From Candidatus Thalassarchaeaceae archaeon (GTDB lineage Archaea > Thermoplasmatota > Poseidoniia > Poseidoniales > Thalassarchaeaceae): a stretch of 41,909 bases of DNA. Under the pieces are notes generated by a model. That model was not told the DNA's origin and did no database searches. It worked only from the letters and a program-made list of their open reading frames with translations. The first letter of the stretch is position 1; every line of letters begins with the position of its first letter. The stretch is taken from assembly GCA_030747395.1 (NCBI GenBank), contig JASLKT010000007.1, forward strand, positions 1-41,909. Direction: 5' to 3'. Made by a program: the position numbers and the translations under genes. Below are positions 9,766-18,992 of this stretch, piece after piece.

Positions 9766-12480
9766 TCACTCATCCGATTCGTGTTGAATCCAAAGGCGAG
9801 ATTCTTGGTCACGTTTGTACCAAGTACCACTGCCAGCCGGTTCTTCCAACCATTCCTCACCCTCATTCCAAACCCCATCCAAGTAAGAATCTGGACCTGT
9901 GACCAAATCGAATACTGACTCATCTGGTATAACTGGAGAATGAACCTCAGACGGCCTTTCCCTACGCGTCAAGCTGATGGCGAGAATCGATAGTAGCGCA
10001 ACCAAAAGAATGGCTGCAAGGGCCACTCCGCCCTGCATCATCACAGAATCAGTTTGACCTTCAGTTTCTTTGCCAATGAATGAATCACAGCCATCTGGAA
10101 TGTTGTCCATGTCCTCATCGATGTTGTCGTCGTGCCCATTACAAGCGTCGGCGAAGTCAGCACGACCATCACCATCTGTATCGATCAATGAATCGCAACC
10201 ATCTGCAATGCCATCCAGATCCATATCGATTAAATCATCAAAACCTGGGCAGAGATCATCGACATCTGCCACATCATCATAATCACTGTCTACGAGAACA
10301 TCACAGGCATCGGGATAGCCATCTGCATCGATATCGATGGTGTCATCATGACCGATGCAGCGATCATCCGCATCAGAGACGCCATCGCCGTCGGTATCGA
10401 TTACGTCATCACAGCCATCGGGAATACCATCTACATCCACATCTATTGTGTCATCAGAATCAGGGCATTTGTCATCGGCGTCTGAGACACCATCACCATC
10501 CGCATCACGCTGACTGTCGCTACAACCGTCTGTGTAAACGGATTCACCTTGTGGCGTATCTGGACAATAATCTGAGTTATCCATGATTCCATCGTTGTCT
10601 GAATCAGTGGTACTACCAACTTCTCTCTGCTCTTCACTGCATCCATCAGTGAAAATATCGACACCAGATGGTGTGCCCTGACAAAGGTCATCATCGTCGT
10701 AAACCCCATCTCCATCTGTATCGAAAATCAAGTGCAGTAAATCGTTCATGGCTGTTGCAATTCGAATATCCCATCTCGCAGCATGCTCGCGTAAACCAGC
10801 CTCGTTGAAATGAATTGTATCATACCGCCATTCAGTACCATTGAGATCATCTGTATGCGGTCCAGCAAACGTTAGTGGATCTGCCTCAATGACCGCATTT
10901 TGGCCACCGACAACCCAACCCATCTTGACAGGGTCTCCATTGGGGACAAAACCAACTCGCGCAACAGCCCAAGCGATGTCATAGCCGGCATGGGCTCGAC
11001 TACCAAGAACGACCTCGCCCAGCATTTCGGCATAATCCTCTATGGTCGTGCCACCTGCATTGCTTTCCCCTTGATGCCAAAGGATGGCACGCGCTCCACT
11101 TGGTTGAACGGCATCAAGTGCTTCCGTGATTCTAGGGAAAAGGTCGTTTGCATCCGGGACCCAACGGTCGACCTTGGTGCCACCATAACCCACAGATAGG
11201 AAACCGATTGGAACATCATATCGGTCGGTAAGCAAATCTCCGAGTGCAGGCCAAGGTGAACCACTATTGCCGGTGGCAGCAGGTTGTGGATCATGTCCAA
11301 ATCGCCATCCATTGGAACTCCAAGTACTGACACGTGGGTCAGTCGGAGTCAATGGGAAGTCGCCATGATTCGCAGAATTGGATTGTCCTGCAACGATGAA
11401 AACTTCACCAACACCAACAGGTTCGATGGTTAGGAGGTCGACTTGCTGTCCTGCATTCATGAAACGGAAATCAAGGCTGTGCCACCCCGTGGGAACATCA
11501 AGTGTACCGTAGAAATTTGAGCTGAGAGGAACTGCAACCTGTGTCCAATCAGAGGGTGTTCCATTGTCTAAAGAGGTATAGCGACCTTCAATCAAATCAA
11601 CGACGTGCTCGGTTGAACCACGAACAGGGAATGTACCCATACTGTATTCGTTCCTCTGTACGATTTGATGAGAATCTGGAGATTCCAAGTTGACCATGAG
11701 GCCGGTAGGCGTCGGCCCAGGGTGAACCATTACAGTCAGCGTTTTGACTTCATATTCACCACAATTTTGAGAAAATGTCCAATCTGGATTCCCTTCTGAA
11801 TCAGGATTGTTGCCAATGCCGAGATCATCGCCTGAACCCGCGCTAGCGTAGCCCCAAGCACTGTATGAAAACAAGGTCTCTCCGGACTCATAGTCATGGA
11901 TTTGCATGCTCCCATAACCTGCGCTGCCCTCAGCACTTTGGATGTCGCCAAAATCATACACAGAACCATCCGCATTGGGTACGGCGTTGCCATTACTAGT
12001 GCCGTAATTTGTGCCCCAGAATTCAATCACACCAGTGTCAATCGACCCCATGCCGGTGAGGTTTGGATGATTCGATTCAATCTGTACTTCGTCTAGGAGT
12101 TGCTTGAATTCGACGCCTGAGGAAAATGTAGGCACACCCAATTCATTGGCATACATGGTGGGGCTCGGAAATGAGATAAACACCCAAATTCGGTCTTCGC
12201 CAGGTTTCTTCAACTCGAGGTGGTAAGCAACTCGATCGAATGTGAAATTGATGGTTTCAGCATCATTGATTGAATAGGGAATTGCATCATTGTTGAACTT
12301 CCCATCATCAGGGATATTCAGTTGATACACCGTTGTGTAATTGGCAGATTCTGAAACATCGTTTCCAACGGATGTGCGAATCGACATGTCGTGTGGGATG
12401 GAATGGAAATTTCCAAATCCTACCCATGGAACTGCAAGCAGTAAGAGGGTCAGGAGAAGAGCCGTCTTACGCGCGCGCAT
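9766..12480 (-). CDS. Membrane-anchored SASA-family (sialate O-acetylesterase-like) esterase with thrombospondin type 3 repeats and Trp-rich cytoplasmic tail
   Basis: 904 aa; signal peptide; VFIVAGQSNSANHG and ILWHQGESNAGG; repeated DxDGDGVSDADDxC; TM VALAAILLVALLSILAISL; tail EEWLEEPAGSGTWYKRDQESRLWIQHE. Confidence 0.85.
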   Translation of the reverse strand: MRARKTALLLTLLLLAVPWVGFGNFHSIPHDMSIRTSVGNDVSESANYTTVYQLNIPDDGKFNNDAIPYSINDAETINFTFDRVAYHLELKKPGEDRIWVFISFPSPTMYANELGVPTFSSGVEFKQLLDEVQIESNHPNLTGMGSIDTGVIEFWGTNYGTSNGNAVPNADGSVYDFGDIQSAEGSAGYGSMQIHDYESGETLFSYSAWGYASAGSGDDLGIGNNPDSEGNPDWTFSQNCGEYEVKTLTVMVHPGPTPTGLMVNLESPDSHQIVQRNEYSMGTFPVRGSTEHVVDLIEGRYTSLDNGTPSDWTQVAVPLSSNFYGTLDVPTGWHSLDFRFMNAGQQVDLLTIEPVGVGEVFIVAGQSNSANHGDFPLTPTDPRVSTWSSNGWRFGHDPQPAATGNSGSPWPALGDLLTDRYDVPIGFLSVGYGGTKVDRWVPDANDLFPRITEALDAVQPSGARAILWHQGESNAGGTTIEDYAEMLGEVVLGSRAHAGYDIAWAVARVGFVPNGDPVKMGWVVGGQNAVIEADPLTFAGPHTDDLNGTEWRYDTIHFNEAGLREHAARWDIRIATAMNDLLHLIFDTDGDGVYDDDDLCQGTPSGVDIFTDGCSEEQREVGSTTDSDNDGIMDNSDYCPDTPQGESVYTDGCSDSQRDADGDGVSDADDKCPDSDDTIDVDVDGIPDGCDDVIDTDGDGVSDADDRCIGHDDTIDIDADGYPDACDVLVDSDYDDVADVDDLCPGFDDLIDMDLDGIADGCDSLIDTDGDGRADFADACNGHDDNIDEDMDNIPDGCDSFIGKETEGQTDSVMMQGGVALAAILLVALLSILAISLTRRERPSEVHSPVIPDESVFDLVTGPDSYLDGVWNEGEEWLEEPAGSGTWYKRDQESRLWIQHESDE
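10080..10730 (-). repeat. TSP3-type acidic Ca-binding repeat array inside the esterase gene
   Basis: Recurrent DNA block (cat/catca/gatcatc-rich) encoding DTDGDGVSDADDxCxxxDDTIDxDxDGxPDxCD units. Confidence 0.8.
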
Positions 12481-12512
12481 GGTTACGGGGAGACGTGTTT
12501 CTCTATAATCGG

Positions 12513-13640
12513 TTACGACTCAAAGCGTGTGTAATTTCTTTCATATTCGGTAGCACTATTTTGATCCCATTCTACCAACTCTTTTGCCATTATTTTTTTG
12601 TATAAAAATGGCGTAATTAATACTAGATATAGCATGGATAAATATCCATAAGGCAATAGTGGTGCATCTTTATGAGTTGGATTTAGTTCCCAAAAATTCA
12701 AACTTGCAGATCTATGATGGTCAGAATGTCTTGTTACATTACACAAATAGATGCTACTGAGTAAATGATTGGAATTCCATGAATGCCTCATACCTACAGG
12801 TTTCCCCTTTTCCCTTACTAGGCCATAATGTTCAATATAATTAATGGATTCCAACAATATCTTTGCTATTAATGCACATAAAAGGAAACATAACATCCCA
12901 ATTAGGCCACCAAAAATAAACGCTAATACTGTAAGAAATAGGCTCCTTGAATATCCAATTATCATTCTATTATGGATACTCAATAGACTTTGATTTCTCC
13001 TTTTCAATCGACCTGCTTCAAGTTTCCAACCACTGATTTGTTCTTCAAAACTGGCTCTAATGATAAACAGATAGATATTTTCACCTCTTTTCGCTGAGGC
13101 CGGATCTTCATCTAAGCACACGTCTTTATGATGCCCATAAACATGTTCGATTGCAAAAGTACAATCCCAAGAAAAAGCAAGCATCCAATTTCCGATGAAC
13201 ATGTCAATTTTACTCTGCTTTCTATGAGTTAACTCATGACCCGGTACCGTACCAAGTATTCCGATAAGTAGCGTATTTTGGATAATTATAGAGATTTTAT
13301 CCACTAGGGTAAAAGAACCTATTAGTTGGATAATATCAATATTAAACGTAGAATACAATCCTTCAATATACCAATTCGGAGAATTATTACCAAAAATGGA
13401 CACGACAAAAAATGTCAAGCAAAATAATATTGGTAAATTGATGTAAATTGAAAAATTCAATATGGCTGGATATGAAAAATGTTGAATCTCCTTGTCTCTA
13501 GGTAAAACATGATCCCCAATAATCAGAAATAATGACCAAGCGATGATAAAATAGGTCGGGTAATTCTGTCCCTGCAAAACAAATATGATGAACAAAATAC
13601 CTGTTAGAGCAGGAATATAATGTTTGAAATATTTCAGCAT
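12513..13640 (-). CDS. alkB: AlkB-family alkane 1-monooxygenase (membrane di-iron)
   Basis: 375 aa, multi-TM. Four AlkB motifs: GHELTHRK, EHVYGHHKDV (followed by EDPASAKRGENIY), NYIEHYGLVRE, RHSDHH; also HSWNSNHLLSS and DAPLLPYGY. Confidence 0.9.
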   Translation of the reverse strand: MLKYFKHYIPALTGILFIIFVLQGQNYPTYFIIAWSLFLIIGDHVLPRDKEIQHFSYPAILNFSIYINLPILFCLTFFVVSIFGNNSPNWYIEGLYSTFNIDIIQLIGSFTLVDKISIIIQNTLLIGILGTVPGHELTHRKQSKIDMFIGNWMLAFSWDCTFAIEHVYGHHKDVCLDEDPASAKRGENIYLFIIRASFEEQISGWKLEAGRLKRRNQSLLSIHNRMIIGYSRSLFLTVLAFIFGGLIGMLCFLLCALIAKILLESINYIEHYGLVREKGKPVGMRHSWNSNHLLSSIYLCNVTRHSDHHRSASLNFWELNPTHKDAPLLPYGYLSMLYLVLITPFLYKKIMAKELVEWDQNSATEYERNYTRFES

Positions 13641-13679
13641 TTTTCATCCCACTATTCTTCTTTCACATGTCTTCACTGA

Positions 13680-14792
13680 TTAGGATAGAATGTCACTCAA
13701 GCAATCCCTGTCAATTGCCTTGCGAATGCAGCGAGCAATTCGCTGCCCGGTAGAAAGTCCTGGCTCGTTGATATCCGAGTAAGGTGAACCGCCGACCGCG
13801 ACATTGGAACCGGCAACAATTCGAGCGCTGACTTCAAAGACACGGAATTCGAGTTTGTCAGTGACAATGGTCTCAAGGCAGAAGGGTCCAATCATTCCGC
13901 GTGCGTCATCCTCTAATTCAAGCGAGGCCGCAACTGCACCTTCGCCCAAGCGGAAAGCTTCGGGAAGCAAAGATTCGCGGAGAACGGCAGGCGTATTTCC
14001 TGTGACGACGAAAGATGGCTCTAAGCCCATATCTCGAATGTCACGCAGACTTCCCAATTTGTAGAACTCATCGACATTCGCCTCGTCTCGACGGTCTATG
14101 CTCATCAACTCCAATCTGCCACAGTTCTGGCCTTCACGACTGCCCATGCCTTCGACTTGATAGCCATCTTTAGCAATCGGGTCGAAAAAGAACTGGAAAT
14201 AGTAACGTGTCCCAAGAACGTACTCTTGGATGGTGAATTCTTCTTCTAAGTCGACGTTTCGTCGGAAGTCACGGAAGTTGCGCGCAATGAAGTAACCACG
14301 TCCCCCTTTGGCACCTGCATACTTGACAATCACAGGGCCATCGATATCGTGTGGATCTTCAATCACTTTGGGCATGGTGCAGCCACCGGATTCAAGCCAT
14401 TGGCGCTGCAATTCTCGACTGCCCTCCCACTTCAGAATCTGACGATTGCCGAAAGTGGGTACTTCAAGTGCGATGAAATTGGTTGGACTGAGGTATTCAA
14501 CCAATGATCCATGTGGGATAATGATGACATTGCGCTTGCGCAATTCTTCCGCTTTGTCTAGAAGTTCCAGATAATTGTCCAAAATCATCCATTCATCGGG
14601 TTCTGCCCCTGGAAATGCCTTGTACATCTTTTGGCGGTCTTTGCCAACACAAATACCGAGGGTCCGGAATCCTTCTAGACGGGCTCCATGAAGAATCTGA
14701 AGCGATGAGTGCGAGGCGATTACACCAATCGTAATCTCGGCAGGATTGTACTCCGCGAGCCAGTCAGGCAGGTGCGGGTGTGTGGTCGCCAT
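13680..14792 (-). CDS. purP: Formate-dependent FAICAR synthetase PurP (ATP-grasp)
   Basis: ORF to 14882; ATG 14792 (MATTHPHLPDW) preferred. IGVIASHSSLQILHGARLEGFRT, IIPHGSLVEYL, PVIVKYAGAKGGRGYFIA, MGSREGQNCGRLELMSIDRR, GPFCLETIVTDKLEFRVFEVSARIVAGSN. Confidence 0.93.
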   Translation of the reverse strand: MATTHPHLPDWLAEYNPAEITIGVIASHSSLQILHGARLEGFRTLGICVGKDRQKMYKAFPGAEPDEWMILDNYLELLDKAEELRKRNVIIIPHGSLVEYLSPTNFIALEVPTFGNRQILKWEGSRELQRQWLESGGCTMPKVIEDPHDIDGPVIVKYAGAKGGRGYFIARNFRDFRRNVDLEEEFTIQEYVLGTRYYFQFFFDPIAKDGYQVEGMGSREGQNCGRLELMSIDRRDEANVDEFYKLGSLRDIRDMGLEPSFVVTGNTPAVLRESLLPEAFRLGEGAVAASLELEDDARGMIGPFCLETIVTDKLEFRVFEVSARIVAGSNVAVGGSPYSDINEPGLSTGQRIARCIRKAIDRDCLSDILS

Positions 14793-14972
14793 TAGGGACG
14801 GCTCCGATGCCCGGTAATTATCGGTTGCGGAAATAGCACCCACTCTTGAGGGGTGATGGGTGCAATAATTCGCATGGTTCATATAGGTGAAGATACAACC
14901 TAAGACCTCGTGATTCTGTTGTCTTAGCGAACCTGATCTGCACCAAATTGGTCACAGGAGCGAAAGCGCTAG

Positions 14973-15263
14973 ATGGATATTACAAAAGAGAACAAGAACA
15001 CGAAGCAAGCAAGAGAAATTCAGAAAATGGTCATGGAACTAATACAACTTTGGATACCAACACTTGAGGATGAACTGCACGGACAGAAGAGCGCACTTAG
15101 AAGTCGAGCAATGAAACTGATGGGGCTTTGGATTACAAGATTGGAATACGAAAATGCGGAAGACCTTCTGAGAAAAGAAATTCAAGAGTGGGAATACGAG
15201 AACAACGAATTGAATTATGGTGAGGACAAATACAATTGGGAATTCAGAGAAGAGCATGTTTGA
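14973..15263 (+). CDS. Small charged hypothetical protein with an internal repeat
   Basis: 96 aa ORF with no competing gene; internal similarity MELIQLWIPTLEDE vs MKLMGLWITRLEYE. No family recognised. Confidence 0.5.
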   Translation: MDITKENKNTKQAREIQKMVMELIQLWIPTLEDELHGQKSALRSRAMKLMGLWITRLEYENAEDLLRKEIQEWEYENNELNYGEDKYNWEFREEHV

Positions 15264-15281
15264 GGGTGTCAAAACCCCCTG

Positions 15282-15318
15282 TGAAACCTAACGGTGGAGG
15301 GGGGGCAAGACATTCAAG
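15282..15318. repeat. Direct repeat copy 1 (tgaaacct-aacggtggagggggggcaagacattcaag)
   Basis: Matches 16668..16703 apart from one G deletion before AACGG and two extra G in the G-run. Confidence 0.9.
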
Positions 15319-15342
15319 TGCCGCCTTGTAACAAGTCGACCC

Positions 15343-16677: not shown

Positions 16678-16703
16678 ACGGTGGAGGGGGCAAGACATTC
16701 AAG
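16668..16703. repeat. Direct repeat copy 2 (tgaaacctgaacggtggagggggcaagacattcaag), spans the RluA-family gene stop codon
   Basis: See copy 1 at 15282..15318. Confidence 0.9.
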
Positions 16704-16713
16704 CGTCAGGGCG

Positions 16714-17826
16714 ATGCGAAACAACATGGGCGGAGGATATTCAGGCGCTGGAGGCGGTTCTAATCGGACATATGGAGGCTATCTAGGCCTACATGAATTG
16801 CTCTCCTTGCAACGGGAAGATGAAGGGGTCAGCAACGATGAGATGCATTTCATTGTCACACACCAAACCTTCGAACTTTGGTTCAAACAGGTCATTCGAG
16901 AACTCAGAGAAATTCGAGATATTCTCGCTACGGAACATGTTCCAGAGGCTGAAGTGCCAAAAGCCGTGGAACATCTGGGTCGCGTGACTGAAATCTTCCG
17001 CCTTCTGGCCAATCAATGGAAGGTGATGGAAACACTCACTCCACAAGGATTCCTTGCATTCCGGGATGGTTTGGGTACTGCTAGCGGATTTGAATCGTAT
17101 CAAATGCGCGAAATGGAAATTCTCCTCGGCTTGGAACAGGTTGGCCGTGTTTCTGATATGGATCCATTGGGTCATTTCCGAAAACTCGCTACTCGCAGTG
17201 AAGCAGATGCGGCTGCTTTGGCTCGTTTGGAAGCTACTTTAGAAGAAACAACACTGGAATCCGCATTGACCACTTGGTTATCACGAACGCCCATCATGGG
17301 CTCATTCTATGGTTCAAATAAAGACGATGAAATCGTCGAATCATATGTCGATGCCCATCTCGCTGCTTACGCGAGTATAGGAGATGCAGCAAGTGCGCGA
17401 ATGGAAGCACAGGGTGTAGACAATATCGAAGCCGTCAAGGCTCGCTTTGCTGCAGCAAGCCAAGGTGCACGTGATTTCCTCAAACCCGATGGTGATGTGA
17501 ATCGAGCACGCGCTGGATTGCTTTTCATCGAGTCATACCGAGAACTCCCGTTACTCGCTTGGCCCAGAGTACTCATCGATGCCGTGGTTGAACTAGAGGA
17601 GAGCATGGTTCTTTTCCGAACATACCATGCACGAATGGTTGAGCGAATCATTGGACGACGTGTTGGTACAGGTGGTTCTTCAGGTGTCGATTACCTCGAT
17701 GCTACGACCAAATATCGAATTTTTGGAGATCTCTGGGGTGTCCGAACAATCCTCTTGAAACCAGAGCTTCGACCTTCATTGAAAAATGGAGATATCTATG
17801 GATTCGCAGGCGATGGAACAGATTGA
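16714..17826 (+). CDS. kynA: Tryptophan 2,3-dioxygenase
   Basis: YGGYLGLHELLSLQ...DEMHFIVTHQTFELWFKQVIRELREI, GFLAFRDGLGTASGFESYQMREMEILLG, GTGGSSGVDYLDATTKYRIFGDLWGVRTILL are TDO signatures. ATG 16714 preferred over GTG 16681 in the repeat. Confidence 0.93.
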   Translation: MRNNMGGGYSGAGGGSNRTYGGYLGLHELLSLQREDEGVSNDEMHFIVTHQTFELWFKQVIRELREIRDILATEHVPEAEVPKAVEHLGRVTEIFRLLANQWKVMETLTPQGFLAFRDGLGTASGFESYQMREMEILLGLEQVGRVSDMDPLGHFRKLATRSEADAAALARLEATLEETTLESALTTWLSRTPIMGSFYGSNKDDEIVESYVDAHLAAYASIGDAASARMEAQGVDNIEAVKARFAAASQGARDFLKPDGDVNRARAGLLFIESYRELPLLAWPRVLIDAVVELEESMVLFRTYHARMVERIIGRRVGTGGSSGVDYLDATTKYRIFGDLWGVRTILLKPELRPSLKNGDIYGFAGDGTD

Positions 17827-17852
17827 TACACATCAGCAGGAGACGGTGGAAT

Positions 17853-18992
17853 ATGGTAGAGGTTGTCATCTGCGCTGTAGCGCGCACACCTGTCGGTCGC
17901 TATCGGGGTGCATTGGCCAACCAAACAGCAGTCGAACTAGGAATTCATGCTGTCAGAGGTTTACTTGAACGGGTCAACATTGACCCAACCAGTGGAATCA
18001 TCGACGATGTTCTATTCGGTCAGGTTTTGCAAGCCGGTGCGGGACAAGCACCTGCAAGACAGGTTGCATTGGGTGCTGGGATGCCCGTCAGTACACCTGC
18101 GACGACCATCAACAAAGTCTGTGGGTCATCACTGAAAGCGGTCATGATGGCAGCCAATAGCATTCGAGCCGGAGAATACAACGTGATTGTAGCTGGTGGG
18201 ATGGAATCGATGACCAACGCCCCATATTTCGGACAAAAAATTTCGAAGACTGAATTTGGTGAGATGAAACCTACAATGATTCACGATGGCCTATGGGATG
18301 TTTACAATGATGAACACATGGGCAATACTGGAGAAACAGTATCAGAAGAATTTGACATTTCTAGGGGCACTTCAGATGCCTTTGCTTCACGTTCGCATGA
18401 TCGCGCACTTGCCGCTTGGGAACAAGGGTGGATGGACTTCGAAGTCATCAGTACACCTGGAATCCAACGAGATGAGGGCATTTCACCAGGTGGGAATCTT
18501 AGTGAAATGAGAGCGGTATTCCAAGAAGATGGGAGAATTACTGCAGGCAATGCATCGCAACTTTCAGATGGTGCTGCTGCTGTTCTAATCGCCAGTCAGG
18601 AAGCAGCCAATGCAAACGGATGGCCAGTGCTTGGAACCGTAATCGATTATTGCACATCAGGGGTTGAGCCGGCAAGAGTGATGGCTGCACCGATTCCTGC
18701 AATCGAACTATTGCTCAATCGAAATGGATTGACGATGAATGATTTGTCTTTTGTTGAGCACAACGAGGCGTTTGCAGCGGCTTCATGTGCGATTGCAAAG
18801 GCATGCAACATTCCCGATGAGAAACTCAACCCACACGGCGGGGCCGTTGCGATTGGACATCCGTTGGGGGCAACCGGTGCCCGTTGTCTGATGACACTCA
18901 TCAATGCACTTCGTCGCACCGGCGGCGGGAAGGGGATTGTGACCCTGTGCCTCGGTGGTGGCAATGCTGTTGCCATGCTTGTTGGTGCCTAA
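17853..18992 (+). CDS. Acetyl-CoA C-acetyltransferase (thiolase)
   Basis: NKVCGSSLKAVMMAANSI, GGMESMTNAPYF, ITAGNASQLSDGAAAVL, EHNEAFAA, NPHGGAVAIGHPLGATGAR, TLCLGGGNAVAML. Confidence 0.94.
   Translation: MVEVVICAVARTPVGRYRGALANQTAVELGIHAVRGLLERVNIDPTSGIIDDVLFGQVLQAGAGQAPARQVALGAGMPVSTPATTINKVCGSSLKAVMMAANSIRAGEYNVIVAGGMESMTNAPYFGQKISKTEFGEMKPTMIHDGLWDVYNDEHMGNTGETVSEEFDISRGTSDAFASRSHDRALAAWEQGWMDFEVISTPGIQRDEGISPGGNLSEMRAVFQEDGRITAGNASQLSDGAAAVLIASQEAANANGWPVLGTVIDYCTSGVEPARVMAAPIPAIELLLNRNGLTMNDLSFVEHNEAFAAASCAIAKACNIPDEKLNPHGGAVAIGHPLGATGARCLMTLINALRRTGGGKGIVTLCLGGGNAVAMLVGA

Follow-up and report, generated by a model that had tools for sequence, protein, structure and literature searches.

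The window, that is, the whole stretch of 41,909 nucleotides that was analysed, belongs to a MAG of the order Poseidoniales (Marine Group II) with a size of 1.6 Mb, 84% completeness and 150 contigs. An alkB-like gene, referred to here as type A, was found to be located between a purP-like gene and an esterase gene, and the following features were recognised.

12513..13640, minus strand: type A gene for an AlkB-family integral-membrane di-iron monooxygenase of 375 amino acids, with an ATG start (motifs, homology and model)
13680..14882, minus strand: purP-like gene, flanking the insertion site upstream (DUF1246/DUF1297 and PurP subfamily models)
9766..12480, minus strand: SASA esterase gene containing TSP3 repeats, flanking the insertion site downstream (domain matches and blastn)
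12524..13675, minus strand: inserted segment, missing from the same-genus genomes G266 (locus L115) and G263 (locus L118), in which the gene order is otherwise the same
13641..13672, minus strand: leader of about 30 bases, common to this type A copy and the nearest copy (L083, genome G132) in the alignment

The type A gene was found mid-contig and co-directional with its neighbours, which the earlier note had named as purP and a surface esterase, and the domain models agreed on both. The GC content of the gene was 33.5%, against 47.5% in the window and 41-51% in the other window genes that were measured, so that the AT-richness claimed in the earlier note stands; its count of 16 G/C among the 60 bases at 12601-12660 was repeated and found to be exact. 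Most genomes of the genus contained two PurP-like genes that are about 35% alike (e.g., G000:C78:2773-3897, G000 being the window genome). A tryptophan 2,3-dioxygenase gene of the archaeon was present at 16681-17826 of the window, followed directly by a thiolase gene at 17823-18992.

All of the motifs quoted in the earlier note were found in the protein, namely GHELTHRK, EHVYGHHKDV, EDPASAKRGE, NYIEHYGLVRE, HSWNSNHLLSS and RHSDHH. That note had regarded the gene as a true AlkB and not a generic desaturase, and had called for an alignment of the di-iron ligands, a structure prediction and a phylogeny. In an alignment of 43 sequences the iron-ligand histidines H135, H139, H166, H170, H171, H271, H305, H308 and H309 were all aligned and invariant, and type A was found to keep the AlkB glutamate E270 and HSWNSN. 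The nine-histidine ligand set and a glutamate beside Fe1 (FtAlkB E271/E281) have been described previously (PMC10110569, PMC10113152). The Pfam match was to FA_desaturase (1.8e-27), which is a superfamily model, and no NCBIfam model matched type A or the related type B described below. The best matches in a PDB sequence search were both AlkB (9e-40 and 3e-34), and no other PDB chains were found. The AF2 model had a pLDDT of 95.5 and was confident along the whole length, and Foldseek against the PDB at E<=0.001 retrieved only 8f6t (TM 0.74) and 8sbb (TM 0.72), both of which are AlkB. The dN/dS of type A pairs without indels was found to be 0.08-0.14 and therefore indicates purifying selection; the pairs with indels (L087, L088, L090) were left out as misaligned. 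The FADS (non-AlkB) desaturase references were found to branch far from type A. By every feature checked, the window gene encodes an intact di-iron membrane monooxygenase of the AlkB family, its activity being predicted from the sequence and the model.

Two trees (LG+C20 and LG+F+R5) were found to have the same topology. Type A was placed as sister to the ferredoxin-type AlkBs with a support of 89-95%, which is short of full (SH-aLRT 89 under LG+C20), and grouped with the Polaromonas ferredoxin-reductase-AlkB and the Hydrocarboniclastica AlkB, followed by XylM as the next relative. The gene next door to the Hydrocarboniclastica AlkB encodes a 2Fe-2S protein. XylM and a Sphingopyxis sequence formed a separate clade, and type A was outside it in both trees. 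The archaeal type A copies formed one clade. Closest to it were sequences of Neomarinimicrobiota and of a single unplaced marine bacterium, which are 49-65% identical and come from genomic regions with a GC content of about 25-29%.

The GRYER loop, of about five residues with two docking arginines, was found to be absent from type A, from its ferredoxin-type relatives and from type B. The closest reference group, ferr_ferrR_AlkB (Polaromonas, L154), contained the same short loop without GRYER, a Y at the R169 position, the glutamate and the histidines, whereas type A is only 37% identical to it and stand-alone, no ferredoxin or reductase being found fused or adjacent to the window gene; candidate donors were present elsewhere in the genome. 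Activity of a ferr_ferrR_AlkB fusion has been reported (Williams et al., cited in PMC8918992). With the rubredoxin-type AlkBs (8f6t, 8sbb; Alcanivorax, Marinobacter, Rhodococcus) type A was found to have in common the fold (TM 0.72-0.74), the nine histidines, the glutamate and HSWNSN, but it occupies a separate branch, lacks the two-arginine docking loop and occurs in an order without recognisable rubredoxin. XylM (pWW0, pWW53) was found to be 29% identical over the full length and to contain the short loop, its gene being beside a 2Fe-2S reductase, whereas its AlkB glutamate is replaced by Q and its HSWNSN by HAW, and its branch is long.

Rubredoxin is the electron donor of canonical AlkB. 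The earlier note had seen no rubredoxin gene in the window while taking the need for it as a family rule. No rubredoxin-like motif was found in the window or in the genome to which it belongs, and rubredoxin (PF00301) was above the Pfam cut-off in 0/319 Poseidoniales genomes, with 7/14 control genomes positive. Since rubredoxin appears to be lacking across the order and type A groups with ferredoxin-type AlkBs, a need for rubredoxin is unlikely here. Motif searches next to the genes of the relatives from Neomarinimicrobiota and Proteobacteria found neither rubredoxin nor 2Fe-2S genes. Rubredoxin was also looked for in 28 bacterial genomes containing AlkBs, A-like or other, and was present in 0/9 with the nearest A-like genes and in 5/19 of the others, which is only suggestive. 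The rubredoxin-docking arginines of FtAlkB are R143, R148, R169, R215, R284 and R287 (PMC10113152). Type A was found to contain K, M, Y and R at the positions of R143, R148, R169 and R215, respectively, and a shortened loop in place of R284 and R287; across type A, two of the docking positions were occupied by M and Y/H. Recognisable rubredoxin was also missing from several Bacteroidota genomes whose AlkB has the long loop, and the loop is therefore an unproven marker. The window genome itself contained genes for an FNR-like reductase and for a plant-type [2Fe-2S] ferredoxin of 95 aa. Because of the rubredoxin absence, the tree position, the lost docking arginines and these ferredoxin and FNR genes, a [2Fe-2S] ferredoxin is favoured, on indirect grounds, as the probable donor of type A.

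Type A was found in 19/319 Poseidoniales genomes, in both families and at scattered sites. The 18 genomes other than that of the window contained it at 74-89% identity with archaeal neighbours, so that the type A family in archaea is independent of the window junction. No conserved operon was found around type A, and the neighbours differed in nearly every genome, the exceptions being an ALO oxidase gene upstream in five genomes and a few close pairs. The type A loci L002-L005, L008, L014, L016, L085-L087, L090 and L093 were about 0.6 kb or less from a contig end, as if the site of insertion differed between members of a population and interrupted the assembly.

The gene is horizontally acquired, as the earlier note had proposed. 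In blastn, the window blocks 11045-12523 and 13676-15320 were found to abut in L115 (G266), and likewise in L118 (G263); in these two same-genus genomes purP is followed directly by the esterase gene and the site is empty, G263 containing a type A gene elsewhere. The nearest type A copy (89%) was found in G132, which belongs to the other family, whereas the same-genus copies were only 76-83% identical; the purP genes were 90-92% identical within the genus and 70-75% to the other family (72% to G132). The GC content of type A was below that of the flanks at 19/19 loci, and the sampled B genes were near host GC. The acquisition follows from the empty sites, the identity contrast with purP, the low GC and the placement in the tree next to Neomarinimicrobiota. 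The leader of about 30 bases apparently moved along with the gene. Target-site duplications or inverted repeats at the junction were not evident by eye in the alignment. As for vehicles, the peptide patterns had no match among the IMG/VR contigs, and the plasmid matches were only to bacterial AlkB/XylM at <60% identity. The simplest reading is that the gene originated in bacteria and was then transferred repeatedly among Poseidoniales. The most likely donor is a bacterium of the Neomarinimicrobiota (SAR406/Fidelibacterota) type, the direction of transfer being based on few sequences from that group. The earlier note had also advised looking for the locus in other genomes, and the result was divided, the purP-alkB junction being found in one assembly only and the type A gene in 18 others.

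A second AlkB-like gene, type B, was found in 218/300 Poseidoniales genomes without type A (e.g., L143:4728-5726 and L139:4690-5724), and either type A or type B was contained in 237/319 genomes, most of them incomplete. Type B has the superfamily, the nine histidines and hosts in common with type A, whereas it is about 35% identical, has Q or R where AlkB has the glutamate, and lacks HSWNSN; the annotation of this near-core gene as AlkB is doubtful. It looks resident, since the sampled sequences formed a clade of their own, with near-host GC and recurring conserved neighbourhoods. Type A and type B were found together in only 1/19 type A genomes (G258), and this exclusion was significant by Fisher test (4e-9 overall, and 3e-6 when stratified by genus with approximate genus sizes).

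The loci of type B were found to be empty in several type A genomes. In the window genome, SDR and PPDK abut with an alignment overlap of 8 bases, and type B is located between them in G259, G266 and G267. The type B flanks also abut in G002 and G005, the same-genus G004 containing type B there; TYW1 and PitA abut in G027 and G032, with type B between them in G028; and MsrA and the next gene abut in G221, where type B is present in other genera. From the empty SDR-PPDK locus and the inserted type A gene it follows that the window genome gained A and lost B. The added capacity on a blank background implied by the earlier note does not fit, since most Poseidoniales carry type B and the type A genomes lost it from its locus. 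The clean deletions of B in the type A genomes suggest a xenologous displacement, in which A appears to have replaced B; a precedent is described in PMC6461757, where transferred copies took the place of proteorhodopsin genes. As B was lost in nearly every genome taking up A, type A appears to assume its role, and the two may be functionally equivalent. Type B is without the AlkB glutamate and HSWNSN, and hence A and B may act on different substrates, and their exclusion might have another cause.

The ALO/FAD_binding_4 oxidase found directly upstream of type A in five genomes was contained in 15/319 genomes, that is, in 6/19 with type A against 9/300 without it (p 7e-5), and it was never found with type B in one of the 319 genomes. 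The ALO genes of genomes without type A were often located at the type B locus, in several Poseidoniales genera, as SDR-[ALO]-PPDK and MsrA-[ALO]-C19 (ALO loci L192-L198 and L219, compared with the type B loci L138-L140, L147-L149 and L152). In G169 (L198/L207) the ALO gene comes after a type B remnant of 86 aa, and G025 (L217) was found to keep a remnant of 19 codons at the type B locus. The best PDB relatives of the oxidase were xylitol oxidase and galactonolactone dehydrogenase. It might act on the alcohol made by type A, which would not account for the replacement of B by ALO. Somewhat short of even odds, we consider that Poseidoniales may have one conserved hydrophobic-substrate oxidation step, filled by enzymes that are only distantly related or unrelated, namely type B, the rubredoxin-free type A or the ALO oxidase. 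If so, AlkB chemistry would be a near-core and ferredoxin-driven trait of very abundant surface-ocean archaea.

The reading that is preferred here, with a probability of about 0.72, is that type A is a ferredoxin-branch AlkB that came from a bacterium, moved between Poseidoniales families, was accompanied by the loss of B on uptake and carries out a putative oxidation of hydrophobic chains. Poseidoniales would have received the gene from a bacterium, with Neomarinimicrobiota as the most likely kind of source, and this would have been followed by repeated movement as a single gene between the families, sometimes with the upstream FAD oxidase, and by the loss of the resident B in nearly every genome. 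The enzyme would draw a hydrophobic substrate from the membrane, an n-alkane (e.g., cyanobacterial C15/C17) or another aliphatic chain, and would add oxygen to the chain end with O2 and two electrons supplied by a ferredoxin reductase and a plant-type [2Fe-2S] ferredoxin. Conversion of the alcohol to the aldehyde and the fatty acid would follow, and then the beta-oxidation of the order. A hydrocarbon is the presumed substrate. The presumed fate of the product is based on the fatty acid degradation reported as order-wide in PMC6461757 and on the neighbour genes, as aldehyde dehydrogenase and FadB were found beside some A-like or B loci.

An alternative is that the enzyme oxidises the lipids, quinones or isoprenoid chains of the cell itself, as a housekeeping hydroxylase or desaturase of which A and B are alternative forms. 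The presence of A or B in 237/319 mostly incomplete genomes resembles a housekeeping gene and not an oil-degrading accessory, the gene occurs alone without an alk operon, and type B lacks the AlkB-specific residues. However, type A keeps every AlkB-specific residue checked, the characterised enzymes nearest to it hydroxylate alkanes or aryl-alkanes (PMC8918992), and some loci adjoin oxidases, aldehyde dehydrogenase or beta-oxidation genes; this role is considered less likely, while being the strongest competitor. A rubredoxin-dependent alkane hydroxylase whose rubredoxin was missed in a MAG of 84% completeness would be in line with the use of rubredoxin by canonical AlkB and with the incompleteness of the assembly. 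The count of 0/319 Poseidoniales above the cut-off against 7/14 controls, together with the tree position and the short loop of type A, makes it very improbable.

A chimera of assembly or binning, in which a bacterial gene was misjoined to an archaeal contig, would explain the strong GC contrast, the lack of the junction in the nine other same-genus genomes that were examined at the orthologous purP locus, and the many type A copies near contig ends. It is less probable still, as type A genes of 74-89% identity are surrounded by archaeal genes in 18 further Poseidoniales genomes, one of which, AH-273-F07, has a single-cell-style name and a record that is not labelled as a MAG. The window copy is moreover mid-contig and co-directional and has a leader in common with L083, and type B was lost at another locus of the same genome.

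The earlier note had left open whether archaeal AlkB homologues were already reported. Alkane 1-monooxygenase is tabulated for Poseidoniales genera in the legend of Fig. 4 of Rinke et al. 2018 (PMC6461757), and alkB/xylM is reported for Poseidonia/MGII MAGs in Rezaei Somee et al. 2021 (PMC8166890), and an archaeal AlkB is therefore not new. The passages concerned contain annotations only, with no split into two classes, donor or displacement. The literature search found no report of the two active-site classes, the A/B displacement, the affinity to ferredoxin-type AlkBs, the lack of rubredoxin throughout the order or the ALO exchange, and such absence from the literature searched is no proof of novelty. 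The interest is in a rubredoxin-free AlkB variant that displaces a resident relative, the family being already known in the order.

Marine Group II is uncultured and ranks with the most numerous archaea of sunlit ocean waters. The A/B exchange provides natural paired genomes, containing either gene, for the comparison of substrate and niche, and it cautions that metagenomic counts of alkane 1-monooxygenase may lump together two archaeal classes whose active-site residues differ. If the gene works as proposed, the marine oxidation of alkanes or similar chains by AlkB-type enzymes would not be exclusively bacterial and would not need rubredoxin.
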